A DNA stretch of 43,178 nt from Candidatus Gastranaerophilales bacterium. GTDB lineage: Bacteria; Cyanobacteriota; Vampirovibrionia; Gastranaerophilales; Gastranaerophilaceae. The notes beneath the pieces were generated by a model. That model did not search any database. It was not told the DNA's origin and worked only from the letters and a program-made list of their open reading frames with translations. Positions 76 through 37,827 of the stretch are shown one piece after another; the stretch's first letter is position 1, and the number at the start of each line of letters is the position of its first letter. The stretch is from contig CALUWK010000012.1 of NCBI GenBank assembly GCA_944324475.1, positions 1 to 43,178 of the forward strand, given 5' to 3'. Both the position numbers and the translations under genes were made by a program.

Positions 76-175
76 AAAATATATTCAAATATAGCTATTT
101 ATTGTCAATGATTAATTCTAAGAATAAATAATCAGCTTAATTACTCTAACAACAATATATTTTAAAGTCAATAGA

Positions 176-203
176 TTGACATAAAAAAATATACTTGCAT
201 AAT
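176..203 (+). promoter_or_regulatory. sigma-70-type promoter for the GT9 gene
   Basis: A perfect -35 hexamer TTGACA (176-181) is followed after 16 bp by CATAAT (198-203). The start site predicted from the -10 falls at about 210, which is the A of the ATG of the next gene, so the message may be leaderless or nearly so. Confidence 0.6.
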
Positions 204-209
204 TAAGAT

Positions 210-1217
210 ATGAATTATAAAAATATATTATTTATAAATTATGGCGGTTTGGGAGATGAGATTCTTTTTCTTCCTGCGATTTTTTCGGTTAAAAAAGAAT
301 TTTCAAATGCCAAAATTACCTTGGCTCTTGAACCTCGATCAAAAAGCATTTTTAGTTTAACTGATAATATTAATGAAGTAATTGAAGTAGATATTAAAGC
401 AAAAGGATTATTGAAATATCTAAACATATTAAAGTTTATACTTAAAGCGAGGTCGAAAAAATTTGATTGTGTAATTTCAAGTGGTAAAAGCTTTTTTGTT
501 CCAATAATTCTTTTTTTAATGGGCATTAGAGAAAGAATTGGATATTCAGGAAAAACAGATTTTTTATTAACTAAGAAAGTTAAATTAAATGAAAATCAAT
601 ATGCTGCTAAAATGTACCATGATCTAGTAAAACCAATAGTGAAAAATCTTTATGAAGATCCGTCCATAAATATTCCTAATGATTTAAAATTAAATGATGA
701 TATTCCTAAAGATGGTTATATTGCAATTCATCCTGGAGTTTCTAAGTTATCAATAACTAAAAATATAATAAAGTGCCCAAAATTATCATTTTGGTTGCAA
801 TTAATTGAAGGTCTGTTAATCAAAGGGAAAAAGGTTGTTTTACTTGGTACGAAGGATGATAGCGAATTAATCGAAAAAATATGTAGTTGTGATAGAATAA
901 ATAATCATAAAAATTTTATTAATTACTATAATAAAACTAAAAATCTGTTAGAATTAGCTTTAATTATGAAAAATGCAGATTCTGTAATTTGCGTTGATAG
1001 TGCTCCTTTGCATGTTGCAGTTTGTGTAAATGCCCGCCTTTATGCAATATTTGCCCCGACAAACGAATTAAAATTAGTCCCAAACAGATTAGGAATTGAT
1101 ATAATAAAAAATAATGTTGCTTGCAGACCTTGCTTGTGGCACAAAAGAAAATGCAATTGTGAAAAATCAGAATGTCTCGATATAGATTATAATTTAATAT
1201 TAAATAAAATTAATTGA
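210..1217 (+). CDS. GT9 family glycosyltransferase (heptosyltransferase-like)
   Basis: This 335-residue protein matches the ADP-heptose:LPS heptosyltransferase family (GT9), which transfers heptose or a similar sugar to the LPS core at the inner face of the cytoplasmic membrane. The N-terminal Rossmann motif (ILFINYGGLGDEILFLPA, residues 6-23) is the family signature. The donor-binding half has IAIHPGVS near residue 172 and the CVDSAPLHVAV stretch near residue 261. The tail carries a Cys-rich segment (CRPCLW...CNCEKSEC) common in GT9 proteins. The ATG is preceded only by a weak TAAG; the signature begins at residue 6, so this start is right. Acceptor and donor are not known; a role in LPS core synthesis is inferred from the family and from the lpx/lpt genes at the other end of the window. 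Confidence 0.85.
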   Translation: MNYKNILFINYGGLGDEILFLPAIFSVKKEFSNAKITLALEPRSKSIFSLTDNINEVIEVDIKAKGLLKYLNILKFILKARSKKFDCVISSGKSFFVPIILFLMGIRERIGYSGKTDFLLTKKVKLNENQYAAKMYHDLVKPIVKNLYEDPSINIPNDLKLNDDIPKDGYIAIHPGVSKLSITKNIIKCPKLSFWLQLIEGLLIKGKKVVLLGTKDDSELIEKICSCDRINNHKNFINYYNKTKNLLELALIMKNADSVICVDSAPLHVAVCVNARLYAIFAPTNELKLVPNRLGIDIIKNNVACRPCLWHKRKCNCEKSECLDIDYNLILNKIN

Positions 1218-12120: not shown

Positions 12121-12252
12121 CAATGAAGTGTCAATACTTTAGTCATTTTACAATTTAATACTTTTTATAAAAATGTAGGAAGTAAAAATAGAAAGGAGAA
12201 AAACAAAAAGAAAAAAAATCTAATTCCAAATATTAATAAATCATTCGTTTAT
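12100..12252 (+). repeat. 3'-flank repeat, copy 1
   Basis: A 153-bp sequence starting in the last codons of protein 1 and running through its 3' untranslated region. It is identical to 15515-15666 except for one extra A in an A-tract. It includes a palindromic GTTATAAC around the stop codon and a TTTTTATAAAAA palindrome. Confidence 0.97.
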
Positions 12253-12256
12253 TATT

Positions 12257-12280
12257 GGAGTATTCATACTCCATTTTTTT
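12257..12280 (+). terminator. intrinsic terminator of protein 1 gene
   Basis: GGAGTA-TTCA-TACTCC hairpin followed by ATTTTTTTA, directly after the 3'-flank repeat. Confidence 0.85.
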
Positions 12281-12286
12281 ATTATC

Positions 12287-12315
12287 TTGACTTTGGTTGA
12301 TAATTTATGTAGACT
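12287..12315 (+). promoter_or_regulatory. promoter for the second pilin-like variable protein
   Basis: TTGACT (12287-12292), 17-bp spacer, TAGACT (12310-12315), immediately after the terminator of protein 1. If it is used, translation cannot begin at the upstream in-frame TTG (12287), which lies in the -35 box. Confidence 0.5.
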
Positions 12316-12388
12316 GTTTAGTAGATTATTTAATCAAAACACTTTAAATTTGTGCGCAATTTTGGTATTGTGCGCAGTGGAGATATCT

Positions 12389-15300: not shown

Positions 15301-15535
15301 AACAAGTGGCCTTATGTTGTGTGACCACAGTTCTGGTTACGGTTCAGCTCAATGCAGCAATTACGATGTTTGCTACGGCTCCCGCGATGGTTACTGCCGC
15401 CCGTACTATGTATGGAGTAGTACACTCGATGGTAGTTCTAGTGCTATTGAGTACAGCTTGGGTTCGGGGTCATGGTACTCGGATTCCTATATTAGGCGTG
15501 TTGCAGATTCCGTACGTTGTGTCAGTGAGTTATAA
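12389..15535 (+). CDS. pilin-like, cysteine-rich surface protein with three hypervariable lectin-like modules (protein 2)
   Basis: This 1048-residue paralogue of protein 1 has a prepilin signal with cleavage after Gly16, Tyr17 as +1, Glu21 as +5 and a hydrophobic helix to about residue 37. I chose TTG 12389 because GGAG (12379-12382) is 6 nt upstream and it gives a normal short prepilin leader; the longer frame from 12287 overlaps a promoter. Residues about 50-395 hold many CxxC pairs and GCC2/GCC3-like repeats (CPAGSYSAAGASSCS). Three 230-residue units follow, each with a Cys-rich linker (CxxCSSSACTRC.DGY) and a lectin-like module (CVTQYNMGDK, CCWQGKTA, WRLPT.DEL, SVRCVS). The variable stretches are residues 519-586, 749-816 and 979-1046. 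It would be a surface adhesin or receptor displayed by a pilus-like system; ligand unknown. Confidence 0.87.
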   Translation: MKNTCGLLKKAGCFSGYSLVELCVGFIVMSVLLAALSPVISKRIVSSVVGGEKELSISCDELFPEAEGHCAICYKSPKECLFCSRICASGYLKDTGECVCKTCKSVYHDEHCSRCDENSCLACDDGYYLDDKNKCIPCPAGSYCHQVLGNSVIKQCQKGYAAPNEGMSACLPCEKSSNTTAGSVAVNEGSEACVTCLDGNYASSSAQSTACESCPKGYYCPGGLLIPCAKGYSNNSEGQTSCVACKKSDETTTGTVAVSESSQTCSKCIDGTYAASDAQGIACGSCPAGYYCPDGKIIKCPAGKYSTGGAKECTLCPAGSYSAAGASSCSTCAAGSYSAAGASSCSACASGTTSASGAASCSACSSFFSNCTSCTATACTACKSGYKLVNGRCEIDNPCPANTIYVNADGKDLCVTQYNMGDKTEFPVNVSGVSVVSTRTDCSANACCWQGQTAACDSINGGYSGCNRTVCTHYAAEIICNSLNYYGLSWRLPTKDELAGFSPTTYSINIGTSGLMLCDYLSGYGSVQCLTYLGCNGSYNGGCFPYIVWSSTLYSSSGAYRYELNSGSWSQYYNDRRFPFSVRCVSPIGEKTCKDTFGNGCVECSSSACTRCMDGYTLKNGKCVVAPTCPANTIYVNANGKDLCVTQYNMGDKTEFPVNVSGVTVVSTNTECSANACCWQGKTAESCNSENGGYSGCNRTQCTHYAAEIICNNLNYGGMSWRLPTRDELSGFYPTYSKDKGASGLMLCNYNSGYGSPQCGKYNVCDGSFNGNCYPSYVWSSALSSSSYAYYYRLDSGSWLWSSCNRRRVLSVRCVSPLGENTCKDTFGNGCVECSSSACTRCMDGYTLKNGKCVVVPTCPANTVKITVSGKDLCVTQYNMGDKPEFPVNVSGVKVVSTNSYCSANACCWQGKTADPCDSDNGGYSGCNRTQCTQYAAEIICNNLNYGGMSWRLPTKDELKGFYPTYSKNVGTSGLMLCDHSSGYGSAQCSNYDVCYGSRDGYCRPYYVWSSTLDGSSSAIEYSLGSGSWYSDSYIRRVADSVRCVSEL
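13334..13477 (+). repeat. 48-bp tandem repeat (three units) in protein 2
   Basis: Three consecutive 48-bp units at 13334, 13382 and 13430, each coding 16 residues of the form C(P/A)AGSYSAAGASSCS(T/A). Units 1 and 2 are nearly identical and unit 3 is diverged. This is a GCC2/GCC3-like stalk that can change in length by slippage. Confidence 0.85.
13943..14146 (+). other. DGR-type variable region, protein 2 module 1
   Basis: A 68-codon segment aligned without gaps to the other two in this gene. Variable codons include CTT, AAT, TAC, GGC and TTC where other copies have AAT, GAC/TAC, TTC/CGC, AAC/TAC and TAC/CGC. The third base is mostly kept. It ends TCCGTACGTTGTGTCAGT, as in modules 2 and 3. 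Confidence 0.7.
14633..14836 (+). other. DGR-type variable region, protein 2 module 2
   Basis: Same 68-codon layout and identical anchors as module 1, with different residues at the variable sites. The downstream linker (after GTCAGT) is the repeat-unit linker and not the 3' flank. Confidence 0.7.
15323..15526 (+). other. DGR-type variable region, protein 2 module 3
   Basis: Terminal copy, next to the stop codon and the conserved 3' flank, the usual position of a DGR target. It shares TCAGCTCAATGC with protein 1 just inside its 5' edge. Higher G/C content than the surrounding gene fits replacement of template A by other bases. Confidence 0.75.
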
Positions 15536-23082: not shown

Positions 23083-23999
23083 TATATAACCTTGGTTCTA
23101 ATTTTTTTCATCATTGTTTGCATCTTAAATAGATACCATTTTTTATAGAGTTTATCATAATCTCTTTCGATATTATATTCGGGATGTAATAGCAGTATTT
23201 TCTTTGTTTCTTCTGTAAGAAATTTTTTTATTTCTGTATCTTTTAGATTAAATGAAGTAATAAAAAATACATATAAAATTAAATCATTTAGAAGAATTTT
23301 ATAATTTTCTTCATTTTCGGCTTCATTTAGTATAATTCTTGCACATTTAATTCTATCTTTCATTTTTTCAAGACTTACATTATGAGATTTACTTCCTTCG
23401 TGTCTTATGTAGTAATAAATTGAATTATCAACAAAGCAAATATTTTTAATTTTTTTTGCAGTTTTTACACTAAAATATGGGTCTTCAAAAGTCGAGATAT
23501 CTTGCGGAAAATATAGATTATTTTCTCTAAGAAAGGAGGTTTTATATATTGCAGTTGTGTATTCACCAAAAAAATATGTTAAATTTTTTTTAATTTTTTC
23601 ATTTAAATCAGATTTTGTAGAAAAATTTGTTGATACAATTTCAAAAGTGCCTTTTGCAACTTCAGAATTTGTTTTATTAACTTTTTTATATAAATCTTCA
23701 AAAAAATTTAAACTTATATAATCATCACCATCTATAAAACCGATGTATTCGCCGTTTGCATGGTTAATTCCTTTGTTTCTTGTATATGAGGCACCAGAAT
23801 TGATATTATTTTTTATTAATTTAATTCTTTTATCAAGCTGCATATATTGTTCAATAATAGATGTGCTTTTATCTGTTGAGCAATCATCAACGCAAATAAT
23901 TTCAATATTTTGAAGCGTTTGGTTTATTAAGCTTTCGAGACATTTTTGAATATATTTTTCTACATTATAAACAGGTACTATTGCTGAAATTTTTAACAT
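23082..23999 (-). CDS. GT2 family glycosyltransferase
   Basis: This 305-residue GT-A enzyme starts KISAIVPVYNVEKYI and has CVDDCSTDKS and the FIDGDDYISL metal-binding DxD region near residue 90, then a C-terminal helical part. It transfers a sugar from a nucleotide sugar to a growing glycan in the cytoplasm. I moved the start from an upstream frame position (24041) to ATG 23999, which has GAGGA 6 nt upstream and begins with the conserved beta strand. Its start lies 35 bp inside the end of the preceding dehydrogenase-like gene. Confidence 0.9.
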   Translation of the reverse strand: MLKISAIVPVYNVEKYIQKCLESLINQTLQNIEIICVDDCSTDKSTSIIEQYMQLDKRIKLIKNNINSGASYTRNKGINHANGEYIGFIDGDDYISLNFFEDLYKKVNKTNSEVAKGTFEIVSTNFSTKSDLNEKIKKNLTYFFGEYTTAIYKTSFLRENNLYFPQDISTFEDPYFSVKTAKKIKNICFVDNSIYYYIRHEGSKSHNVSLEKMKDRIKCARIILNEAENEENYKILLNDLILYVFFITSFNLKDTEIKKFLTEETKKILLLHPEYNIERDYDKLYKKWYLFKMQTMMKKIRTKVI

Positions 24000-24768
24000 A
24001 ATTTTCCTCTGAAATATAAGACTTGTTTCTGTATATAGCATTTAATTCAGGTATAATTTTAATTAAATTATTTATATTGAGATTTTTTGTACAATCTATA
24101 AATGCTAAGACATCTTTCGGAAAACATTTTCCGCCATATCCAAATTGCCCATCAGGCCCAGGCACTTGCGTATGGGGTGAATTTATATACCCGCTTAACA
24201 GTGCACCTTGGATAACGTTCTTATAATCAATATTAATATCTTTACAAAATTCATAAATTCCGTTAAAGAATGTAACTTTCAGTGCCCCAAAGACATTATG
24301 AACATATTTTGCAACTTCTGCTTCTTTTGAATTCATAACAACATAATCTTTGTTTATAAAAATTTCTTTTAATAAATTAATATGATTTGTAAAAATCATT
24401 TTTTGATTGCAAAAATCGCTATACGCAGTTCTTTCTGTTAAAAATTCAGGCATAAAATTAATGTCTTTGTTGAATTTTTTTGATAACATCTCAGTCGTTC
24501 CTGGTTTTATTGTGGTTCTGATAAAAATTGGAACATTCGGACACATCTGTATTAAATTTTCAAGAAGCGTTAAATCTTGTTGATAATTATCATCAGTTAA
24601 AATATGAATACTGATAAAAATTATATCTGATTTTTTTATATCATCATATAAATTTTTAGGTGGGTCATATTTTAATATGTTGCAATTTTGATTATTTTCA
24701 TTAAGCCATCTAATAAGTGCGTTTCCAATCGCCCCACATCCTATTATACCTACATTAATTTTTTCCAT
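23965..24768 (-). CDS. short UDP-glucose/GDP-mannose dehydrogenase-like protein
   Basis: The 267-residue protein has an NAD-binding fold (NVGIIGCGAIGNALI), FIRTTIKPGTTE, NFMPEFLTE, and the catalytic-Cys motif GYGGKCFPKDV near residue 225. The UDP-binding C-terminal domain of normal UDP-glucose dehydrogenase (about 400-450 residues) is absent, so the substrate may differ. The reading frame simply ends, and I see no frameshift remnant of the missing domain downstream. ATG 24768 is chosen; a GTG at 24780 is possible and would overlap the preceding gene by 11 bp. A full-length homologue lies at 34525-35823. Confidence 0.78.
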   Translation of the reverse strand: MEKINVGIIGCGAIGNALIRWLNENNQNCNILKYDPPKNLYDDIKKSDIIFISIHILTDDNYQQDLTLLENLIQMCPNVPIFIRTTIKPGTTEMLSKKFNKDINFMPEFLTERTAYSDFCNQKMIFTNHINLLKEIFINKDYVVMNSKEAEVAKYVHNVFGALKVTFFNGIYEFCKDINIDYKNVIQGALLSGYINSPHTQVPGPDGQFGYGGKCFPKDVLAFIDCTKNLNINNLIKIIPELNAIYRNKSYISEENYVKNFSNSTCL

Positions 24769-24769
24769 A

Positions 24770-25540
24770 TTAATTTGCACTTTCCTTTTGAATTACAACT
24801 GTAAAGCCTTTTCCATCTCTGTCGTCCTTGTCGGATGAATAAATTACATTTAAATTTAAATGTTTACATAAATCAAGAAAATCTTGTGTTCTCCAAACGT
24901 TATGATGACAATCTATGGTCGGATCCGGAGCTTCACTTGGATGAGTGTGCCTATATTCAAGCTCTTCTATTGTTGTTGTTGGTCTATCTTTATCATTAGT
25001 TCTATCTTTATGCGGAATATTCATATATATGTATCCATTAGGTTTTATGACTCTCATCCACTCATTTAAAGCAGCGATAGGGTCCCAAAAATGTTCAAGT
25101 GCGTGAGAATTTATAACAAAATCCCAAACGTTATCTTTAAAAGGTAAATTATCTCCAAATGATACTATATCGACTTTTCGAGGTTCGATATTGTAACATT
25201 CTTTACTTACATTTGAATAATGGTTATCTATATCACAAAAATCTATATTTAAAGTATTTAATCCCCAAGGAGCATAGGACGTTCCACCAATTTCAATTCC
25301 TCTTAATCCATCCAGAAATTTATGAGCAGACTTGCTTTCGGGAATGATTTTTAAGAAATTCTTTTTTCTGGTGTAAGAAATTTTTGAACCAAAAAAATAT
25401 ATCGTTCTTTTACCGCCTCTGAAAGTATCTTCTATGAAAATCAATTTTTTTGGATTTAATTTAATTTTAATTCCTAAAAGGGTAACTTGAATGTGGTCAT
25501 TTTTTGCTTCTTTTAAATTAAATAATTTATTTAACTTCAT
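24770..25540 (-). CDS. class I SAM-dependent methyltransferase
   Basis: This 256-residue protein has a methyltransferase domain from about residue 75. GLRGIEIGGT replaces the usual glycine loop, then NIDFCD, VDIVSFGDNLPFKDNVWDFV and SHALEHFWDP, and VIKPNGYIYMNIPH. The first 60 residues form a linker with LLGIKIKL and IYFFGSKISY stretches, a style shared by several proteins of this locus. The methyl acceptor is unknown, likely a sugar of the surface glycan. AAGGA lies about 8 nt before the ATG, and the start overlaps the GT2 gene end by 14 bp. Confidence 0.83.
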   Translation of the reverse strand: MKLNKLFNLKEAKNDHIQVTLLGIKIKLNPKKLIFIEDTFRGGKRTIYFFGSKISYTRKKNFLKIIPESKSAHKFLDGLRGIEIGGTSYAPWGLNTLNIDFCDIDNHYSNVSKECYNIEPRKVDIVSFGDNLPFKDNVWDFVINSHALEHFWDPIAALNEWMRVIKPNGYIYMNIPHKDRTNDKDRPTTTIEELEYRHTHPSEAPDPTIDCHHNVWRTQDFLDLCKHLNLNVIYSSDKDDRDGKGFTVVIQKESAN

Positions 25541-26557: not shown

Positions 26558-27274
26558 TTATTGCATTACCCAGGCTTTTTGCTCATGGTTTTTTATTACA
26601 TTTTTATTTAGTTTTACATTTTTGAAAATTCTATTTAAAACATCAGGATTTACTATAAAATCTGGTAGTGAGTTATCTTTTCTTTTGTAATTTGTAATGT
26701 ATAGTAATGAATTACGAGTTATTTTTAGTTTTAGTTTAAATGGTATAAAAAAATTTTTGTTAGCAATATACAGTAAATTTATTTTTATATTTGGAAATTT
26801 TTTATTTATTTCTTGTTGGGCAATTTTAATTTTTGGAATGATTTTTTTAATTTTCGTTTTAGTTGCAGGTGTTTGTATGTATACAATTAATATTTTATTA
26901 GAATTATTAATATTTTCATACAGTCTTTTTATTCTGCGATTATATTTTTCGAATACCAAAGGATATGTCTCATCTAAATTTTTTCTTAAAGGAAAGTCAT
27001 GGTTAAATACAATTTTATTTTTTAAATTTGCGTATATATCGCAAGGTAGGGGATTTTCACGTTCACCTTGTTTTTGCAGGTCATCAATATTTATGAAATC
27101 TTCAAAATTGTTTACCAAAAGATTGACTCTGGTTTCAATATCCCCGCCATAAAGCCAATCAAGAGGATAACTTTGAAATTGAAGTCCGCATTTCCTTAGT
27201 GTTTCAGAACACGAGCAGGCTTCTCCTATTCCAAAGATAAAATCATATTCATTATTTAAAATACAATTAGCCAA
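26558..27274 (-). CDS. DUF1796-type papain-like cysteine peptidase family protein
   Basis: The 238-residue protein has the DUF1796 signature: DFIFGIGEACSCSETLR, GLQFQSYPLDWLYGG, FNHDF and a middle IVYIQTPATKTK. The family is annotated as putative papain-like cysteine peptidases and is often found in polysaccharide loci; its reaction is not established. The gene begins 2 nt after the upstream stop with a TTG start (27274). There is no in-frame ATG before the conserved part, so the TTG call is sensible and the AAGGA in the end of the upstream gene may serve it. Confidence 0.78.
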   Translation of the reverse strand: MANCILNNEYDFIFGIGEACSCSETLRKCGLQFQSYPLDWLYGGDIETRVNLLVNNFEDFINIDDLQKQGERENPLPCDIYANLKNKIVFNHDFPLRKNLDETYPLVFEKYNRRIKRLYENINNSNKILIVYIQTPATKTKIKKIIPKIKIAQQEINKKFPNIKINLLYIANKNFFIPFKLKLKITRNSLLYITNYKRKDNSLPDFIVNPDVLNRIFKNVKLNKNVIKNHEQKAWVMQ

Positions 27275-28247: not shown

Positions 28248-29303
28248 CTAATATACCTCACATATTAAAAGAGTTTCTCCGACAGGATCGCCGTCTATTC
28301 CTTTAAAAAAGTCAAATTTATAGCCCAGATTTAAATCTTCTATCCATGGCTTTATTTTATAAAAATCATGATAATTGTGATAAATACTCAAAAGCAAAAT
28401 AGGTTTTTGTTCCTTTAAGGTATTGATTGCACCTTTTAAAAAGTGCGGTTCAAAACCTTCAACATCAACTTTAATTAAACCTACTTGTAGATTATTTTCT
28501 TTTACATAGGAATCAAGGGTTCTTATTTTAACAGTTTCTTTGTTGGTTGATTTTCTGCACTCAATTGAGGAATATTCGGGTTGTTCGGGAAAAATGCAGA
28601 TTTCAATATCTTCTTCTTTTGCGCCCAGACCAATTTGTTCAATTTTAGCATTTTGAATATTGTTTAATTTTAAAGTATTTTGTGCAATTTCATAAGTTGC
28701 CTTTACCGGTTCAAAACCAATAATATTGTTTTTCAAATATTTTCTAAATACTAAAATTGAATCACCCGTACATGTGCCCACATCTAATATAGTTTTATTT
28801 CCAATGTTATTAAATGTTTTAAGGGTATCAATCCCGTGTTTATAAACAAATACCGAAGGAGAAAAAAAACTTCTGGGTAATTTATAGTCTTTGTATTGAT
28901 AATAATTTTCTTTTTGTATTATTTCATTTTTCATTTTTTTTATTTTTTCAAGTTGTACAAGCTCATCATCGCTGTATATAAAATTATCATCAAAAGCTAT
29001 ATTATTTTTCACTGCATATAATATTTTGTTAATTCTTTCTAAAATTTTATTTAAGTTATTTAATGAATCCGCTGAAAGATTTTTTTTGAGTATATCAATA
29101 TTTTTTTTATGATCGGAAGCATTTTTTACAATTTTAGATTTTTTCCCGCCATTAAGTGAAAAAGAATATGCAATCAAAAAAATTACCGGATTCCCTTTTA
29201 ATTTATGTTTTCTTTTAAAATTAAATTTTATGCCAAAAATGCAGATTGTATAACGTATACATTCCGAACAAAGATTTTCATTGATATAAAATAATTTATT
29301 CAT
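28248..29303 (-). CDS. FkbM family methyltransferase
   Basis: The 351-residue protein has an FkbM-type SAM methyltransferase in its C-terminal two thirds: TILDVGTCTGDS, IIGFEPVKATYEIA, EQIGLGAKEED, RTLDSYV, LIKVDVEGFEPHFLKGA and PILLLSIYHN. These enzymes O-methylate sugars or polyketides; here a glycan sugar is likely. The first 150 residues have CICIFG-like and helical stretches of unknown role. It starts 3 nt after the PqqD-like gene and shares the operon. Confidence 0.87.
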   Translation of the reverse strand: MNKLFYINENLCSECIRYTICIFGIKFNFKRKHKLKGNPVIFLIAYSFSLNGGKKSKIVKNASDHKKNIDILKKNLSADSLNNLNKILERINKILYAVKNNIAFDDNFIYSDDELVQLEKIKKMKNEIIQKENYYQYKDYKLPRSFFSPSVFVYKHGIDTLKTFNNIGNKTILDVGTCTGDSILVFRKYLKNNIIGFEPVKATYEIAQNTLKLNNIQNAKIEQIGLGAKEEDIEICIFPEQPEYSSIECRKSTNKETVKIRTLDSYVKENNLQVGLIKVDVEGFEPHFLKGAINTLKEQKPILLLSIYHNYHDFYKIKPWIEDLNLGYKFDFFKGIDGDPVGETLLICEVY

Positions 29304-29306
29304 AGA

Positions 29307-29777
29307 CTATTCAACCTTTTTCTCTCTTTCTAATGTTTCTTCTTTTGTATAGCCTATTGATTCTTTTTCCGGACTCCAGCCTGTTTCTTCTTTAACCTCA
29401 TGGATAGGATCAGCCAAAAGCAGCTCTTGTGCGTCGCTATATTCTTTTAAATCGAATGTAAAAGAATTGAAATTTGCTAAATCTTCACTTAAATAAATTT
29501 CTTTTGTTTGTTTATCTGATTTATTTATTATATTAAGCTCTAATAATCTGTTTATAAAGTTATCCAAGCTAATTTCAATATCATTAGGACAATTTTTGTA
29601 TGATTTTAAACAACTTAAAATATCTTCCTTAGAAGCACCATTTACGATATTTTCGTAGACATTTGTAGAAAATTTATTTAAACCGTAATATATGCCTGTT
29701 TCTGAATTTATTATTATCGCAACGCCATCTGCAACATCTGCAAACATTTTTTCCTCATTTAGTGCATAATTTGACAT
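29307..29777 (-). CDS. PqqD-like protein with peptide-like C-terminal tail
   Basis: The 156-residue protein begins with a PqqD/RRE-type fold (about residues 10-95: GVAIIINSETGIYYGLNK, STNVYENIVNGAS). PqqD domains bind leader peptides of ribosomally made, modified peptides. After residue 100 there is an added acidic tail with YSDAQELLLADPIHEV, then KEETGWSP and a Lys/Glu-rich end; such a segment could be a fused precursor-like peptide, but that is inference. GGAG lies 7-8 nt before the ATG and the start overlaps the end of the upstream HprK-like gene by 23 bp. Confidence 0.75.
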   Translation of the reverse strand: MSNYALNEEKMFADVADGVAIIINSETGIYYGLNKFSTNVYENIVNGASKEDILSCLKSYKNCPNDIEISLDNFINRLLELNIINKSDKQTKEIYLSEDLANFNSFTFDLKEYSDAQELLLADPIHEVKEETGWSPEKESIGYTKEETLEREKKVE

Positions 29778-31299
29778 TTTTTTCTCCTAACTTTATTAAT
29801 TCTATATTTTTTTCAAATTTATATTCCGTCATAGACAGTTTGTAATTATTTTCAATTGCAAAGTTGTCATTTATAAAAATGCTTTTTGAATTTTTATTTG
29901 CAAGTAATAAATTTTTACTATTTAAATTTTCAACAAAAATTTCAAATTCGTCAATAATGTTTTGGTTTTTGTTCAGATATTTTTTAAGTTCGGATATTAT
30001 TTCATTTTTTGGAACAGAATTAATTAAATTTTCATATATATTTGTTGCAAATTTGTTTAAAGAATAAATAATACCTTGTTCTGTGTCTAGAATATTGGCT
30101 AAATCAAATGTTATATCAAGCGCTATTTTACTTGTTTCTATTATTTTGTTTTCTAGAGTTTTAAATTTTAACATAAATTCTCTTAAAAATTCAGTATTTT
30201 TATCTATATCATAACAAAGATTAAACTTGTAAAATGGCAAATTTTTCACCATATTAATAATTTTTTTAACTGTGTAATGTTCAGATAAATCCTGAGTTTG
30301 AGATAATGTCGATTGAACTATTTGAACTATTGCTCGACCTTTTTCATCTAGTGTACATGGGCGTATCTGAGGATTTTTATCTGTTACTATCTCAGGAAAA
30401 ATACATAATTTGATTGGATAATTTTTTCTAAATCTGTCATGAAAATTTGCTATATTAAAAACATATTTGTCTTTTCGTGCATTATTTGAAACAAATCTTA
30501 CACCATCCATTAAATCATATAAACGATTATACATTTCAGGTGAAAGTGTTATTATTGAATAAATGGGGCTGGATAATAGCTCTTTTTTTTCGTTTTGGTG
30601 CAAAATTAAATAATCGTCAGATACGTATTCAAACCCTTTGAGCATGGATAATACGGAAAGAGTAGATTTTCCTCTTTGTCCTCTTGCGCAAAAACAAATT
30701 CCGTTGTTATTATATCCTATAACTGCACCGTGTATTAAGTTTGATCTGTCAGTTTTTAAAATATTATTAAAAAACTGTACAAATATATGTCCTTCTTTAA
30801 TAAATTCCTCGGGCGATAAATCTGCTGCATTATAGAAATATTCATTGTTTTCAAAATCGTTTGCAATTATAAAACCCCTTGTGGTTTGAAAGTCAATAAT
30901 TGGTTTAGTTTTTGAATAAGTTTCATCAATTATTTGAATATTATAAATTTCGTTTTCTGTTGTTTTTTCAACTTTTTGTGCTTTTCTGTATACTTTTTCA
31001 AATTTTATCCTTGTATTTATTTTTTGATTATTTTCAATTATTTTTTTCACCAATGGTAAAATGTCTTTTTCATTCCAAATATAGAGTGTATCATCATAAT
31101 TTTTAGATGAATCTTCAAGGACAAAAGTTAATTGTTTTTCAACTAAAGGTAGAAAATTATCATTAAAACTAATTATTTTAACAATTTTGCAACCTAAATT
31201 TACATATCTGACCCATTTTTCTTCGTTAAGAAAAATATGTTCCTTTATAATATTAAAAATTTCCTTAATTTCTGATTTGTTTAAATTTGTTATTTTCAT
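29755..31299 (-). CDS. HPr kinase-like protein fused to a PqqD-like domain
   Basis: In this 514-residue protein residues about 190-330 look like an HprK-related kinase: HGAVIGYNNNGICFCARGQ leading into the P-loop GQRGKST (207-213), then YVSDDYLIL with the acidic pair. HprK-like kinases in peptide clusters phosphorylate precursor peptides and not HPr. The C-terminal region (about 405-485: DILDTEQGIIYSLNKFATN-type) is a second PqqD-like domain, similar to the next gene. The N-terminal 180 residues are not recognised. It lies between the nucleotidyltransferase paralogue and the PqqD gene, all with small or negative spacing. Confidence 0.75.
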   Translation of the reverse strand: MKITNLNKSEIKEIFNIIKEHIFLNEEKWVRYVNLGCKIVKIISFNDNFLPLVEKQLTFVLEDSSKNYDDTLYIWNEKDILPLVKKIIENNQKINTRIKFEKVYRKAQKVEKTTENEIYNIQIIDETYSKTKPIIDFQTTRGFIIANDFENNEYFYNAADLSPEEFIKEGHIFVQFFNNILKTDRSNLIHGAVIGYNNNGICFCARGQRGKSTLSVLSMLKGFEYVSDDYLILHQNEKKELLSSPIYSIITLSPEMYNRLYDLMDGVRFVSNNARKDKYVFNIANFHDRFRKNYPIKLCIFPEIVTDKNPQIRPCTLDEKGRAIVQIVQSTLSQTQDLSEHYTVKKIINMVKNLPFYKFNLCYDIDKNTEFLREFMLKFKTLENKIIETSKIALDITFDLANILDTEQGIIYSLNKFATNIYENLINSVPKNEIISELKKYLNKNQNIIDEFEIFVENLNSKNLLLANKNSKSIFINDNFAIENNYKLSMTEYKFEKNIELIKLGEKNVKLCTK

Positions 31300-31311
31300 C
31301 TGGCAACTTTC

Positions 31312-32493
31312 CTAATTGCTGTATATTTTGTTTAAATCTTTTATTAATATTTGAATTAATTTAGGGTGATTATTTAAAGATTTTAAAAATTTATACTTAG
31401 TTTTCAAAGTGATGTATTTTTTTATTAGAGCCGGATTTTTAAAAATTTCTTTAAATTTTAAAGCCCTGCATTCTTTTTGTAAATCTGAATAATATAGATT
31501 TTCAAACAACACCATATTTGAATAATCATTTGTTTCTTTTTCAAAGAAAGTCGAGTTATCTGGAATAATATTTTTTGAAATTTTTTTAATAAATTTAACT
31601 GCAAAGTTTAATTTAACTTCAAGACCAGCTAATTTGGTATTTTCAACGATTATATTCCAATTTAGTTCAGGATAATTTTTTAATATGAAATTACAATCTA
31701 AAATTTTGTTTAACAAATCCGCATAGGTTTTATCGCATCTTAAATTATCCGAGATACCAATTAATAAAACAAACAAAATATCTTCAAAACTTGGAATATA
31801 AGCTTCAATTCCAAATAATATATCTGTTTTTGCTCTTTGAGTAATGTTCTTGATTAATTTTTTTTGATTTTTTGCCTGAGGTAGGATATTTTTGCAAAAA
31901 TCCATTATTCCTTCTTTAGAATTTTTGGTTTCTAAAATTGCAAAAGTATCATGATTAATCCTTCTAAAATGATAACCTAATGATTTTGCAATTTTTGCTG
32001 ATTTTACCCAATGTTTATTAGAAACAATTAAATTGATATCGTTTATATATCTGGGATAGTTTGGATTTATTGATTTCATTAATCCGTCATTAAAAACGAG
32101 AGGTATAATATTATTATTGTTTAAATGTGTTCCGATTTTTTTAAAATGAGATAAGGTATTTAAATTTTTAAATCGTTGGTTCAACAAAAGTCCTTTTAAA
32201 CGAGGTTCTTCATATTCTGTTGCTTTCAAGTTAGGGTTAGATTTTAGTAAATAGGATAAAATTAATGATTTTGCACCATGCTTTTTTTCTATATTCCATA
32301 AATTAAGCAAATTATCCAAATCGTTTTGTTGAGGATTTTTCGATAATACTAATTTTAATAACAATTTTTCTTCCAGTCCTAAAATCTGATCAAAGAAATT
32401 TTCAATTAAGGCATCTGTGACAAGGGTATTTTCTTTTAAATATCCTGCATGTTTTATTTTCTCTATTTCCTTATTCCATAAGATCTGTAACAT
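31312..32493 (-). CDS. NTP_transf_5-type nucleotidyltransferase homologue, active site degenerate
   Basis: The 393-residue protein is a paralogue of the one at 33386-34507. Both share the layout: helical N-terminus, a nucleotidyltransferase core near residue 140, and a C-terminal IFKNP.L...LK.KY.FLKS...HPKLI block. In the active site it reads RYINDINLIV where the paralogue has RIMGDVDFLV, so the second Asp of the DxD pair is Asn, and the LKG motif is changed to FND; the later DIH is also lost. It may have no catalytic activity. It is the first gene of the reverse-strand operon; no clear ribosome binding site precedes the ATG. Confidence 0.72.
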   Translation of the reverse strand: MLQILWNKEIEKIKHAGYLKENTLVTDALIENFFDQILGLEEKLLLKLVLSKNPQQNDLDNLLNLWNIEKKHGAKSLILSYLLKSNPNLKATEYEEPRLKGLLLNQRFKNLNTLSHFKKIGTHLNNNNIIPLVFNDGLMKSINPNYPRYINDINLIVSNKHWVKSAKIAKSLGYHFRRINHDTFAILETKNSKEGIMDFCKNILPQAKNQKKLIKNITQRAKTDILFGIEAYIPSFEDILFVLLIGISDNLRCDKTYADLLNKILDCNFILKNYPELNWNIIVENTKLAGLEVKLNFAVKFIKKISKNIIPDNSTFFEKETNDYSNMVLFENLYYSDLQKECRALKFKEIFKNPALIKKYITLKTKYKFLKSLNNHPKLIQILIKDLNKIYSN

Positions 32494-32581
32494 AGTTAGT
32501 TTTGCGTATCTAACAATTTATTTAACTATAAATTTATTATATAACAATATAATTTATATTATTAAAATTTTAGTTAATAAT

Positions 32582-32610
32582 TTGTAAATTATCTTATCAG
32601 GTATTATTAT
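32582..32610 (+). promoter_or_regulatory. promoter for GT2-nucleotidyltransferase-ugd unit
   Basis: TTGTAA (32582-32587), 17-bp spacer, TATTAT (32605-32610). The leader of about 45 nt ends with an AAGGA ribosome binding site. Confidence 0.6.
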
Positions 32611-32662
32611 AGTAGATAAATATTTTTTTGAAAAGAAGTTACAAATTGCAAAGAAGGAAAAT

Positions 32663-33331
32663 ATGAAAGATTTAATTTCTGTTGTTATCCCATCGTTTAA
32701 TGGTGAAAAATATATTGGAGAAACAATTACGAGTATCCAAAAACAAAATTTTAATCACGAAATTATTGTAGTGGATGATTTAAGTACTGACAGTACAGTT
32801 AAAATTGCAAAATCTTTTGGCTGTAGGGTAATTGTGAATAAAATGCACAAAGGTCAAATGGCTGGTAAAAATACAGGAATTAAAGAAGCGCGAGGAAATT
32901 ATTGGTTAACTATAGATCAAGATGACATCCTTGCTGAGAATGCATTGAGCATGCTGTATGATGAAATGCAAAAAAATAAAGAATATAAAATAGTAATGGC
33001 AAAATTAAAGAATTTTTGTTCACCTGATACACCTCATAGAAAAAATTTTGTAAATCCTGCCCCATTTACAAATATATTAACTGGTTCTACTTTGTTTAAA
33101 AGAGAAATATTTGATACTATTGGTTTTTTTAGGGAAGATACAATTACGGGTGACGTTATTGATTTAACAGAACGACTTGAAAAAAAAGGTTTTTTTATAC
33201 ATAAAGTTGATTTTATTACTTGTTATAGAAGAATACATGACAATAATTTTGGAATAACAAATCAAGCAGATGAATATAAAGATTATGCAAAAATTCTTAG
33301 AGATAAATTAAGAAGTAAAGTAATTACTTAA
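32663..33331 (+). CDS. GT2 family glycosyltransferase (short)
   Basis: This 222-residue GT-A protein is not a close relative of the other GT2s here. It has ISVVIPSFNGEKYI, IVVDDLSTDS, KNTGIKEARGNYWLTIDQDD, LTGSTLFKREIFDTIGFF and TGDVIDLTERLE. GT2s of this short kind are often found beside PqqD/HprK-like and NTP_transf_5 genes. AAGGA lies 5 nt before the ATG. It opens a three-gene plus-strand unit, divergent from the degenerate nucleotidyltransferase. Confidence 0.85.
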   Translation: MKDLISVVIPSFNGEKYIGETITSIQKQNFNHEIIVVDDLSTDSTVKIAKSFGCRVIVNKMHKGQMAGKNTGIKEARGNYWLTIDQDDILAENALSMLYDEMQKNKEYKIVMAKLKNFCSPDTPHRKNFVNPAPFTNILTGSTLFKREIFDTIGFFREDTITGDVIDLTERLEKKGFFIHKVDFITCYRRIHDNNFGITNQADEYKDYAKILRDKLRSKVIT

Positions 33332-33385
33332 AATTTAGTTTATGATTTAATTTATTATAGTCTTGTATAAAAACTGGAAGAAAAT

Positions 33386-34507
33386 ATGCAAAATATCGGA
33401 ACAACAGACATATTAATTGACAATTTTTGTGATGAAATTTTATTGGAAAATGAAAAAAAATTGCTGAAATGTATTTTTTCAAATGATTTTGATCAATCGC
33501 TGCTTGATGTATTGTTGTCAAATTGGAATGTAGGTGAATTATCTGAATCAAAATTATTATTGTTTGCATATTTGAAAAAATATCATCCAAATTTGCATTT
33601 GAATGATAAGTTACAAAAAATTACAGCACCTTTATTTCAAAGGTATAGAATGAATAATATTGTCATAATTTCACCTTTTATTAAGGCCGGTAAAGTTCTA
33701 AATGAAAACAATATATATCCTCTCATTTTAAAAGGTTTAGCCATGAAACATTTTAGGCAAGATTTACCAAGGATAATGGGGGATGTTGATTTTCTTGTAA
33801 AAGAAAATGATTTTATGAAATCAGTAGAACTTATTGTACCACTTGGCTATTATTATGAAAAAATTGATGTTCACTCGGTAGATTTGCATGACAAAAAAAC
33901 CGGCAGAAATGCTATTGATATTCATCGTTTTATTAGTATGGGTACGAAATGTGAAAAAAATTTTTTAACTGATTTATATAAAAGAGCTTCTTTGCAAAGT
34001 GTATTTGGTGTAAAGGCTTTGGTTCCTTGTTTAGAAGATATGATGTTTATAACTCTTGTTAATTTAGCAAGAAATTTAAGAGAAGCTACAAGTAAGGCAG
34101 GAATACTATATTCTATATTTGATTGCAAATTTTTTATTGACAGTAAAAAAGATTTTGATTGGTCTATTGTTCAAGATAATGCAATAAAAACTGATACTAT
34201 AACTCAAATTGATTTTGCAGTTAGATTTATTAATAGTATTTCAGAGAATATTTTTTCAGAGAATATAAAAGAATTTTACGGTTCAAATAAAAACATTGAT
34301 AAATATTCAACCATGGTTTTATTTAAACGTTTTTATCTTAAAGATTTGAGAACAAAATGCAGAGCTTTAAAATTAAGTGATATATTTAAAAATCCAAGTT
34401 TATTTATTAGTTATTTAATTTTAAAACCCAGATATCAATTTTTAAAGTCAATATCTAAACATCCCAAATTAATCAAGTTTTTGGTTAGAAATTTAAAAGA
34501 TAAATAA
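33386..34507 (+). CDS. NTP_transf_5-type nucleotidyltransferase
   Basis: This 373-residue protein of the NTP_transf_5 family has PLILKGLAMKH near residue 112, then RIMGDVDFLVKE (DxD metal pair) and NAIDIHRF (third acidic residue), so the site looks intact. Members recur in peptide-modification and exopolysaccharide clusters with HprK-like kinases and PqqD; the substrate is not known. GGAAG lies a few nt before the ATG. Its paralogue at 31312 faces it across the divergent promoter region. Confidence 0.8.
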   Translation: MQNIGTTDILIDNFCDEILLENEKKLLKCIFSNDFDQSLLDVLLSNWNVGELSESKLLLFAYLKKYHPNLHLNDKLQKITAPLFQRYRMNNIVIISPFIKAGKVLNENNIYPLILKGLAMKHFRQDLPRIMGDVDFLVKENDFMKSVELIVPLGYYYEKIDVHSVDLHDKKTGRNAIDIHRFISMGTKCEKNFLTDLYKRASLQSVFGVKALVPCLEDMMFITLVNLARNLREATSKAGILYSIFDCKFFIDSKKDFDWSIVQDNAIKTDTITQIDFAVRFINSISENIFSENIKEFYGSNKNIDKYSTMVLFKRFYLKDLRTKCRALKLSDIFKNPSLFISYLILKPRYQFLKSISKHPKLIKFLVRNLKDK

Positions 34508-34524
34508 TCCATGAGGAATGATCA

Positions 34525-35823
34525 ATGAAAATATGCATAATAGGTACAGGCTATGTTGGTTTAACTGCTGGAGCATGCTTTTCCAATCTTGGTCATGAGG
34601 TTATATGTATCGATATTGATTCTACAAAAATATTAAATTTGTCAAAAGGAATATTGCCAATATATGAGCCGAAACTAGACGAGCTTGTTAGATTTAATGT
34701 TTTAAATAAAAGATTGCAATTTACAACTGATATCAAAAATGCTCTACAGGGTTCAAAAGTTTGTTTTATTGCAGTGGGTACCCCGCAAAATGACGATGGA
34801 AGCTGTGATTTAAATTGTGTTTTATCAACTGCAAACTTAATTGCAGAAATTATTAATGAATATAAAGTAATTGTATTAAAATCAACAGTACCCGTTGGTA
34901 CAACTGAAAAAATTAGAGAAATTATAAAAAATGTTACAAATATTGAATTTGATGTAGTTGCTAATCCTGAATTTTTAAGACAAGGTGAGGCAGTCAGAGA
35001 TTTTTTGGAACCTGATAGAATTATAATTGGTACTGATTCAAAAAAAGCTATGAAAGTTATGGAAGAAGTATATAAACCAATTACCCCAGATTTTAAAAAA
35101 ATGATTTTTATGGATTTTAAATCTGCAGAAATGACAAAATATGCCGCAAATTCTTTTCTTGCTACAAAAATTTCTTTTATAAATGAAATTGCAAACTTAT
35201 GTGAAAAAACTGGCGCAAATATAAAATATGTGAAAGAAGGAATGTCGGCTGACACAAGAATTGGTAATAAATTTTTTTCATCTGGAATAGGATATGGTGG
35301 TAGTTGTTTTCCGAAAGATATTAAAGCATTAATCAACATGTCAAAAAAATTTGATTATGATTTAAATATAATTTCTTCTGTACAAAAGGTTAATGAATGT
35401 CAAAAAAAATTATTTGTAGATAAAATATTAAAAAAATTTAATTATAATATTAGTGGTATGACTTTTGCTATTTGGGGATTGTCTTTTAAACCAAATACCA
35501 GTGATATAAGAGAAGCTCCCTCAGTTGATGTAATTAATATGTTACTTTCTTATAATGCTAAAATAAATGTGTTTGATCCAAAAGCAATGGATAATATAAA
35601 AAAAATTTTTAAGAATAAAATAAATTATTATACTGACAAATATGATTCTTTAAAGGATTCAGATGGACTTTTATTGTTAACAGAATGGTCTGAATTTAAA
35701 AATTTAGATTTTGATAAAATAAAATTGCTATTAAAAAGGCCCATTATATTTGATGCCAGAAATTTATATCAAAAAGAGAAACTGTTAAAACATAAATTTG
35801 AATATTTTGGAATTGGTACTTAG
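34525..35823 (+). CDS. ugd: UDP-glucose 6-dehydrogenase
   Basis: The 432-residue enzyme oxidises UDP-glucose to UDP-glucuronate with two NAD. All three family domains are present: NAD loop GTGYVGLTAGACF, TVPVGTTEKIRE, NPEFLRQGEAV, YAANSFLATKISF, catalytic GYGGSCFPKDI and the C-terminal FKPNTSDIREAPS with DPKAM. Length is normal. GAGGA is 7 nt before the ATG. Its TAG stop directly abuts the stop of the convergent CHAP gene. Confidence 0.96.
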   Translation: MKICIIGTGYVGLTAGACFSNLGHEVICIDIDSTKILNLSKGILPIYEPKLDELVRFNVLNKRLQFTTDIKNALQGSKVCFIAVGTPQNDDGSCDLNCVLSTANLIAEIINEYKVIVLKSTVPVGTTEKIREIIKNVTNIEFDVVANPEFLRQGEAVRDFLEPDRIIIGTDSKKAMKVMEEVYKPITPDFKKMIFMDFKSAEMTKYAANSFLATKISFINEIANLCEKTGANIKYVKEGMSADTRIGNKFFSSGIGYGGSCFPKDIKALINMSKKFDYDLNIISSVQKVNECQKKLFVDKILKKFNYNISGMTFAIWGLSFKPNTSDIREAPSVDVINMLLSYNAKINVFDPKAMDNIKKIFKNKINYYTDKYDSLKDSDGLLLLTEWSEFKNLDFDKIKLLLKRPIIFDARNLYQKEKLLKHKFEYFGIGT

Positions 35824-37827
35824 CTATACAGCTGCACTCCATTCGTTCATTCTTATCCATCCTGAGATTTTTCCGTGCGAATTTGAACCTACTGTATATT
35901 GGCGTTCTCTTACAGCATCGCTAGTGTTTCCTTCAATAGTATAAATTGTGTCTCCTTCTACTTTTACAACTATACCTGTGTGCGAAGCACCATTGCTTTT
36001 TTGTATCATGATATCGCCAGGTTTTGGCGTATATGTGCCTACTTTGGAATAATATCCGGCTGCTTGTGCTTGTTCGCGAAGACCAGATACGCTAGATGTA
36101 AATTTAAGAGGATTGTTTCCACTGTTATTTTGTCCTTCACCAAACAACCACGAGACAAACGCCGCACACCATGCAACTCCTGCACCTGCGCCATATTTTT
36201 CGTTATCACCTCTGTTTTCTCCTTCTGTTTCAGATACGCCAAGTTGCGAATATGCCAGTTCTATTGCTGTTTTTGTCAGGTCAGTCAATCCATCAAAACT
36301 AAATTCTAATGCTTTTTCTCTGTTTTCACTATTATTTAAAGCTTTTTGAACATCATTTACATAACTTTGAGATGTTTCTAACTCTGTTTTTGCAGTTGAA
36401 AGCATTGTTTCTTTTTGAGTATCATACTCTTGTTTTGATAATTTATATGCATCTAAATATTCTTGTATTTGCGGATATTTTTTTTGAATTTCATTTTCTA
36501 ATTCGGTCATTTGTAAATTTAGTTCATCCAGCCCACCTTCACCGCTTTTGAGGTCTTCTTTTTGTGTATTTAAATTTTCAAGTTCTGTTTTTTTACTATC
36601 CAAATCTGTTTTTGCGTTTTGCTCATTTGTTTTTGCTGCTTGTATTTCACTTTCTAAGTTACTTATTTTTTGGCTTATTTCTGATTTTTGAGATTCGTCG
36701 AAATTTGATGTATCAACCTGTTTTAGGGTTGATAGAGTGCTTTCCAATACTTCTCTTGTAGAAACTGCATTATTGTACGTGGTTTCAGAAATTGATATTG
36801 CAGATTCCTGATTTAATATTTCAATATCTTTTTTTATAATTTCGTCTTCTTTTAAGTCAATAGATACTTTAAGAGCATCTACTTGTTGAGCCATATTTTC
36901 ATCTACATTATTTAATTCACTTAAATATAAATTGTATGATGCATCAATGTTTGCTTGTAATTGACTTAAAACTGCGTTTGAACCATCTAAAATTGAAGTT
37001 AGAGCATTTTTCTTTGTGGTTAAATCATTTTGTGCAGTTGTTAATTCGTTGGTTAATTCCTCTTTAGTCATATTATCAAGCGTTTTTTCTTCGGGAGTAT
37101 TATCTTTAGTGTAGTCTCCTATAGAATTTGGGTATGAGGAATTATATCCTGTTGGTGCAGTACTTTGCATTTTAGAATTTTCTATTTTTTCTTGCGGCAG
37201 TTCTTCGGACGTTAATTCATCAAAAGTGGAGTCATTAATCTTTTCAACTGCTGCAAGAATGTCGTTTAATGAAATATCAGAATCATCATAGTCAAAAGAC
37301 TTTATTGTATTAAAGAAATTTTCCAATTCTTCATTGCTTATTTCAGAATTTAAATCTTTGTCAATGGCGTTTAAAAAATTTTCATCAGTTAACAATTCAT
37401 TAAATATATCAAATAGTAAATTTGTTTCCGCTGAATCCTGAGTTTGGTTTGTTTGTATTTCATCTGCAAGGTCTGCATCGATTTTTTCGCTTAAGTCATT
37501 AATATCATTTTGTTGAGTTTCGTCACTTACAACAACATCAGTCTCATGTTCAATTTTATTTAAATTTTCATTTTCTGCATCCTGCAATTTATCTTTATCG
37601 ACAAGTTTACCATCTACAATTTGCATGTTTAATATTTCATTTATGCTTTTATAACATACTGAAATATCAAATTTAAGCTCAGTTTTAAGATACTCCTTAA
37701 ATTCATCCGCATGCATAAAAATGCTAACTGTATCACTGGAATTTTTTTCATCGGAAATTTCACCCTTACTTTTAAGGTAGTCCGTGAAATCAAGTTTTAA
37801 TTCATTTATGTTTAAATAATCTCTCAT
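35824..37827 (-). CDS. CHAP-domain cell-wall hydrolase with EF-hand-like and coiled-coil regions
   Basis: The C-terminus of this 667-residue protein (about 510-660) is a CHAP amidase/endopeptidase domain. It shows the Cys in GVAWCAAFVSWLF, the His in GASHTGIVVKV and the IEGNTS block. Residues about 155-205 hold EF-hand-like loops (DKDLNSEISNEEL, then DYDDSDIS) that may bind calcium. Residues about 250-500 are Glu/Lys/Gln-rich coiled coil. It would cut peptidoglycan, but no signal peptide is visible, so how it leaves the cytoplasm is unclear. AGGTG is 5 nt before the ATG. Confidence 0.88.
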   Translation of the reverse strand: MRDYLNINELKLDFTDYLKSKGEISDEKNSSDTVSIFMHADEFKEYLKTELKFDISVCYKSINEILNMQIVDGKLVDKDKLQDAENENLNKIEHETDVVVSDETQQNDINDLSEKIDADLADEIQTNQTQDSAETNLLFDIFNELLTDENFLNAIDKDLNSEISNEELENFFNTIKSFDYDDSDISLNDILAAVEKINDSTFDELTSEELPQEKIENSKMQSTAPTGYNSSYPNSIGDYTKDNTPEEKTLDNMTKEELTNELTTAQNDLTTKKNALTSILDGSNAVLSQLQANIDASYNLYLSELNNVDENMAQQVDALKVSIDLKEDEIIKKDIEILNQESAISISETTYNNAVSTREVLESTLSTLKQVDTSNFDESQKSEISQKISNLESEIQAAKTNEQNAKTDLDSKKTELENLNTQKEDLKSGEGGLDELNLQMTELENEIQKKYPQIQEYLDAYKLSKQEYDTQKETMLSTAKTELETSQSYVNDVQKALNNSENREKALEFSFDGLTDLTKTAIELAYSQLGVSETEGENRGDNEKYGAGAGVAWCAAFVSWLFGEGQNNSGNNPLKFTSSVSGLREQAQAAGYYSKVGTYTPKPGDIMIQKSNGASHTGIVVKVEGDTIYTIEGNTSDAVRERQYTVGSNSHGKISGWIRMNEWSAAV

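Follow-up and report, generated by a model that had tools for sequence, protein, structure and literature searches.

HprK-like kinases and NTP_transf_5 proteins occur in polysaccharide loci without a known substrate, and the cassette described here raises the question of what such enzymes act on. It lies in a 43,178-nucleotide stretch of Candidatus Gastranaerophilales bacterium DNA (contig CALUWK010000012.1, assembly GCA_944324475.1; this whole stretch is termed the window below), from a genome of 1.72 Mb in 64 contigs. At 29307-34507 we find, at the positions given in an earlier note on this DNA, five open reading frames (ORFs), encoding a solo PqqD protein, an HprK-like kinase that also carries a PqqD domain of its own, a pair of NTP_transf_5 proteins and a short GT2 glycosyltransferase. 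What that note overlooked is a ~45-residue C-terminal tail on the solo PqqD protein, which is the subject of this analysis.

The tailed PqqD protein (29307..29777, minus strand) has 156 residues and, based on PF05402 and an AlphaFold2 (AF2) model, is built from a PqqD domain of the RiPP recognition element (RRE) type, RiPPs being ribosomally synthesised and post-translationally modified peptides, followed by a linker and the conserved tail. The invariant core of the tail, YSDAQELLLADPIHEVKEETGWSP, spans residues 113-136 (29370..29441, minus strand), as delimited by column conservation and by counting the pattern DPxHxV..GW, which is present in 89 of 91 tails. The tail consensus reads YxDAQELLLADPIHEVKEETGWxP, with YxDxxxLLxADPIHEV..GWxP as a more reduced pattern. 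In an alignment of relatives, column conservation reaches 0.91 over residues 113-146, as against 0.70 in the PqqD domain and 0.50 in the linker, and the tail is the best-conserved part of the solo PqqD across phyla too. Since residues 113-140 share an amino acid identity of 0.85 with relatives while codon position 3 agrees at only 0.46, the tail is under selection at the protein level. We found no published description of the tail or of its DPIHEV motif in the literature searched, although one may exist in a subscription journal or under other wording.

Scanning an 84,980-species genome collection for the tail yielded 75 loci, and in every complete ORF the tail sits on a PqqD-like protein. An apparent fusion of PqqD, tail and GT2 in one locus (L151) was set aside, as it spans masked bases. 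Tail and kinase are linked: for 69 of 74 loci, a kinase gene is found no more than 600 bp away from that of the tail, with three of the five exceptions ending at contig edges, and in the window the first 23 bp of the tailed PqqD gene are shared with the end of the kinase gene. In a cyanobacterial locus (L198, genome G459, minus strand 79-2061), a single 661-residue ORF contains PqqD, tail, a second PqqD-like remnant and kinase, placing the tail internally. In one genome (G1376, locus L157) no kinase could be matched anywhere, and the GWxP motif of its tail is gone, whereas the remaining exception (G113), with its kinase encoded on another contig, retains an intact tail.

Structure prediction upheld the PqqD assignment of the earlier note. 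In profile searches of the kind that the note had suggested, the solo PqqD protein narrowly passes PF05402 (23.6 bits, gathering score 23.4), and both NTP_transf_5 proteins also exceed their Pfam cut-off. The AF2 model of the solo protein forms a block with a predicted local distance difference test (pLDDT) score of at least 89 up to approximately residue 110. Its PqqD/RRE domain (residues 9-88; 29514..29753, minus strand; Pfam match 21-84) adopts the PqqD/RRE wing-helix fold, with residues 2-88 of the model aligning to the lasso-peptide B1 protein TbiB1 at a VIA Z of 11.1 and a root-mean-square deviation of 2.1 over 83 residues; the TbiB1/TfuB1 structures (5v1u, 5v1v, 6jx3) match at Z 10.5-11.1.

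Ahead of the tail, the model contains an extra strand (residues ~108-114; 29436..29456, minus strand; DSSP strand 110-113), predicted from the end points of VIA alignments to occupy the position at which this RRE would bind a leader. On NisB (4wd9_B, range 139..1017), residues 1..114 of the model align over 93 residues, more than in most other RRE rows, and a sequence search identified the C terminus of the 4wd9 construct as the NisA leader. Because the alignment reaches residue 1017 of a construct that ends in this leader, the strand probably overlays the bound leader peptide and is predicted to fill the groove of its own RRE in cis, so that the tail would be held where an RRE normally presents its substrate.

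The partner of this protein, the HprK-like kinase with its fused PqqD domain (29755..31299, minus strand, 514 residues), was recognised through weak profile matches and a structure model. The HprK-related profiles proposed earlier do return matches, but these fall far under the cut-off of 200 bits (TIGR04355 24.1 bits, TIGR04352 22.8 bits, up to 46.9 bits in far relatives), and its membership of these families, TIGR04352 being that of the HPr-rel-A system, is not supported. Its model, with a mean pLDDT of 92.5, aligns with HprK/P at a VIA Z of 13.4 over ~140 residues and with PEPCK at Z 15.6. No more than six positions are invariant in a set of 53 kinases, and among them are H190, K211, D228 and D229 of the catalytic domain (residues 184-385; 30145..30750, minus strand). 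The protein has the HprK fold and the His-Lys-Asp-Asp set of PadeK/PsmK-type kinases, which lasso-peptide kinases have been shown to require (PMC9266682). The second PqqD domain (residues 392-465; 29905..30126, minus strand) scores a sub-threshold 16.5 bits in Pfam (403-465) and shows the PqqD order of strands and helices in the model. It is followed by a helix and a strand, but both alignment and model show it without the DPIHEV-GWP tail. Kinases in many gut genomes carry a PqqD domain of their own, and those in others carry none. A second, truncated kinase copy was seen on the same contig as an intact cassette in one locus (L089; G116:C3:5491-6333).

Both NTP_transf_5 copies exceed the PF14907 cut-off of 31.2 bits. 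Copy b (33386..34507, plus strand, 63.3 bits) combines the profile match with an intact catalytic DxD motif (LKG...GDVD), and in copy a (31312..32493, minus strand, 34.7 bits) the motif is degraded (FNDG...INDIN). A similar intact/degraded pair occurs in the near-identical genome G001, and copy a of another genome (G009) retains two Asp residues with LKG lost. A purpose-built model detects NTP_transf_5 in 59 of 74 tail loci, to which Pfam adds L156, L162, L163 and L164. The short GT2 (32663..33331, plus strand, 222 residues, PF00535 at 102 bits) is likewise recurrent in the cassette, and a short GT2 best matching that of the window is found in 44 of 75 tail loci.

The gene set as a whole is conserved among relatives, as the earlier note had anticipated. 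In 10 of 24 same-genus genomes we again see NTP_transf_5, kinase-PqqD and tailed PqqD in this order, so that the cassette is no chance association; NTP_transf_5 lies upstream wherever the contig extends, with differing glycosyltransferases downstream. The tail is present in 32 of 288 genomes of the family, covering 15 of 41 genera, and in 21 of 292 genomes sampled from the phylum of the window, seven of them outside its family. Samples from three foreign phyla, with counts that include the genomes on which they were centred, gave 3 of 296 genomes (phylum of a Microbacteriaceae bin), 4 of 199 (of a Phycisphaerales bin) and 5 of 349 (of a Bauldia bin). Like gene kinds cluster in Alphaproteobacteria, Desulfovibrio, Bacteroidales, Spirochaetes, Planctomycetes, Actinobacteria and cyanobacteria. 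Single placements across phyla are uncertain because many of these genomes are metagenome bins; the broad spread is supported by near-complete genomes and by Crinalium epipsammum PCC 9333, whose 44-kb plasmid pCRI9333.04 consecutively encodes a tailed PqqD, NTP_transf_5, HPr kinase, FkbM methyltransferase and GT2. Proteins of this set are recorded as WP_232229449, WP_015180011, WP_015180010 and WP_015180013.

In a kinase tree, the proteins of Gastranaerophilales, rumen Alphaproteobacteria and Bacteroidota lie close together, with the kinase of the window inside a Gastranaerophilales group. This proximity, together with the patchy presence within the genus, suggests that the cassette has been exchanged between lineages, a reading limited by bins that may contain foreign contigs and by far tree rows with very long branches. 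Compared with the window at 31312-35823, genome G001 (L022) is 97-99% identical in PqqD and the downstream genes and ~60-66% identical in the kinase, the NTP_transf_5 copies and UDP-glucose dehydrogenase, and this fall in identity suggests a recombination with a breakpoint near the kinase-PqqD junction.

How might the tail function? We tentatively prefer, as a reading that falls a little short of an even chance, that this is a conserved phosphorylation-and-glycosylation cassette built around an RRE protein carrying its own peptide, with the tail serving as a kinase-docking/activating or presenting element. With the groove occupied in cis, the HprK-like kinase would bind the invariant tail as a docking or activating element. 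NTP_transf_5 copy b and the short GT2 might then build on the phosphate placed by the kinase, as an analogy to pseudomycoidin with its PsmK and PsmN suggests, and the resulting phospho-linked sugar could be elongated by the other GT2s of the locus. In the gut clade, the acceptor is perhaps a Ser in a hydrophilic, Ser/Thr-bearing extension after GWxP (residues 137-156; 29310..29369, minus strand), which we delimited by Ser and length counts: the median number of residues after GW is 23 in this clade and 7 elsewhere, where the tail usually stops a few residues past GWP. The tails of several far relatives have no Ser or Thr, so that the acceptor there must lie elsewhere. In favour of this reading we count the linkage of tail and kinase, including the evidence from G1376, G113 and the L198 fusion, the four invariant catalytic residues, the conservation of the tail across phyla under selection at the protein level, its lack of an invariant Ser, Thr or Tyr, the overlay of strand 110-114 on the NisA leader region of 4wd9 and the frequent presence of NTP_transf_5.

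Several observations weigh against this docking or presenting role. One genome (G113) has an intact tail with its kinase on another contig, the groove placement of the strand is read from alignment end points only, and the tail alone is modelled at a pLDDT of ~60. The second PqqD domain of the kinase is given no part in the proposed mechanism. Finally, a Ser follows GW in 60 of 63 gut-clade tails, which fits an acceptor as well.

Indeed, the tail could itself receive the covalent modification, as a precursor or primer peptide joined to its own RRE: the kinase would phosphorylate it, and NTP_transf_5 and the GT2s would glycosylate it, to give a protein-primed glycan or an RRE-fused RiPP; we regard this as a real possibility that is nevertheless probably not the case. 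A presented substrate has just this topology, a leader strand ahead of an exposed peptide, and the PqqD copy on the kinase has lost precisely the tail. Ser or Thr follows GW in 62 of 63 gut-clade tails, and the kinases of paeninodin, pseudomycoidin and the linear polyphosphorylated peptides (LPPs) phosphorylate peptide Ser (PMC9266682, PMC13381572). A substrate fused to the RRE would also fit our search for a separate conserved short peptide gene, which the earlier note had proposed as a check: among 699 small ORFs around 74 tail loci, no group occurred in more than three loci, the recurring groups being truncated tail copies, repeat-like sequence or helix-turn-helix-like ORFs, and the conserved peptide turned out to be fused to the solo PqqD. 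However, no Ser, Thr or Tyr is invariant in the tail, such residues are missing after DPxH in 7 of 91 tails and altogether in 3 of 91, Ser or Thr follows GW in only 11 of 24 tails outside the gut clade, and the tail of L198 is internal. Because of the missing invariant hydroxyl residue, the seven tails with none after DPxH and the count outside the gut clade, we place docking or presentation somewhat ahead of the tail as acceptor, and ahead of the tail as a RiPP core of the classical kind. The further-reaching proposal that the tailed PqqD is a self-presenting substrate, uniting RRE, own leader and acceptor, which is phosphorylated by the kinase and acts as the protein primer of a phospho-linked surface glycan in many phyla, we consider doubtful.

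The setting of the cassette bears on a third explanation. As the earlier note had stated, the PqqD, kinase, NTP_transf_5 and GT2 genes lie in a glycan locus, where Pfam-scanned neighbours include dTDP-rhamnose genes, GT2s and UDP-glucose dehydrogenase and, farther along, LptC, an LptA-like protein, LpxI and LpxB. With these glycan and lipopolysaccharide genes nearby, a kinase fold also close to PEPCK, a small-molecule enzyme, and no fixed hydroxyl acceptor in the tail, the kinase might target a glycan, glycolipid or small molecule, the cassette putting phosphate on the surface glycan with PqqD as a vestige or scaffold. We judge this improbable, since known HprK-like kinases working with PqqD-type RREs target peptides (PMC9266682, PMC13381572) and a vestigial tail would not be expected to be the most conserved segment. 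For an attachment of the product to the surface glycan, as suggested in the earlier note, we saw no evidence.

Neither a maturase nor an ABC exporter was found among the window neighbours in the Pfam scan, in agreement with the earlier note. The same neighbours include no lasso cyclase (Asn-synthetase-like), B2 peptidase, SpI-like peptidase or MsbA-like exporter, the SpI-like search being confined to the window; by pattern alone, an SGGxDS protein occurs in 1 of 75 tail loci and an ABC ATPase in 5 of 75. No LPP-type precursor with the YxxPxVLxHQ motif recurs as a separate short ORF in the 74 tail loci, and the motif is absent from the tail as well. An ordinary lasso or LPP pathway with its precursor gene elsewhere in the genome would share RRE, HprK-like kinase and NTP transferase in a polysaccharide locus (PMC13381572, PMC7533575), but is very improbable given these missing components, the absence of a recurring separate short ORF and the RRE groove predicted to be filled in cis.

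Other roles were considered and rejected. Radical-SAM cofactor-type maturation, analogous to PqqA/MftA, was weighed on account of a weak resemblance between the short GT2 and mycofactocin-type glycosyltransferases; Pfam detects no such maturase in the window, and CxxxCxxC proteins, identified solely by pattern, occur in no more than 24 of the 75 loci. PADLOC gives no support for a defence role, with one SspB hit at chance level, and weak sequence matches to anthrax PA in the PDB (E 0.18-0.19) are also of the kind expected by chance.

Among the remaining features of the window, an accessory FkbM methyltransferase (28248..29303, minus strand, TIGR01444 at 99 bits) lies immediately downstream of the tailed PqqD, and the 170-bp divergent gap at 32493-32663 is AT-rich. 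In three other loci (L107, L108, L114; ~10170-12000), the tailed PqqD gene is directly followed by repeat-like sequence, with PPTRGGG, FPQKGRK and similar motifs in translation, that looks like a mobile intergenic repeat. Within the glycan locus, a DUF1796 protein (26558-27274, minus strand), which Pfam names as a putative papain-like cysteine peptidase, could serve in processing, and relatives of it occur in a few tail loci (L091, L096, L104, L115, L122). A shortened relative of UDP-glucose/GDP-mannose dehydrogenases (23965-24780, minus strand) has a clear central domain, a weak N-terminal one and no match to the C-terminal one. Two large Lcl_C-domain proteins (689 and 1082 residues) are encoded in tandem at 10051-15535 (plus strand), and a 667-residue protein (35824-37827, minus strand), whose long middle part is coiled-coil-like and whose C-terminal part holds a CHAP domain, is possibly a cell-wall hydrolase.

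A hyperconserved peptide fixed to an RRE offers a testable handle on the targets of HprK-like kinases and NTP_transf_5 proteins and a signature for locating the cassette, of which C. epipsammum PCC 9333 is a named, sequenced carrier. If the tail is a docking element, it would represent an unrecognised mode of RRE-kinase coupling; if it is the acceptor, an RRE-fused protein primer for glycan synthesis.

The closest known systems are the paeninodin-type lasso and LPP clusters, whose defining features were nevertheless not found here. The kinship to RiPP-type gene sets that the earlier note had drawn stands for this equipment (PMC9266682, PMC13381572), and membership of the HPr-related TIGR04352/TIGR04355 families is not supported, the scores lying below cut-off. 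Lasso-type and LPP sets share an RRE, an HprK-like kinase, an NTP transferase and a polysaccharide neighbourhood (PMC9266682, PMC13381572, PMC7533575). Like our cassette, the paeninodin and pseudomycoidin clusters (PadeK, PsmK, PsmN) pair a PqqD-type RRE with a His-Lys-Asp-Asp HprK-like kinase and a nucleotidyltransferase (PMC9266682), a study that leaves open whether PsmN itself is the glycosyltransferase putting a hexose on the phosphopeptide. Unlike in those clusters, no lasso cyclase, B2 protease or separate precursor was found in the window, the RRE bears its own conserved tail and a Ser acceptor is not invariant. The LPP clusters, confined to Bacillota, resemble it in having a discrete RRE, an HprK-like kinase and an NTP transferase in glycosyltransferase-rich loci without a cyclase, but they possess an SpI-like peptidase, an MsbA-like transporter and a separate YxxPxVLxHQ precursor, none of which is seen here (PMC13381572). 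HPr kinase/phosphorylase and the TIGR04352/TIGR04355 proteins share the kinase fold, P-loop and DD motif, whereas scores against the two families are only 20-47 bits. TbiB1 and TfuB1 share the fold over residues 2-88 and bind their leader in trans, whereas in the tailed PqqD a strand of the same chain is predicted to occupy the leader site, leading directly into the conserved tail.

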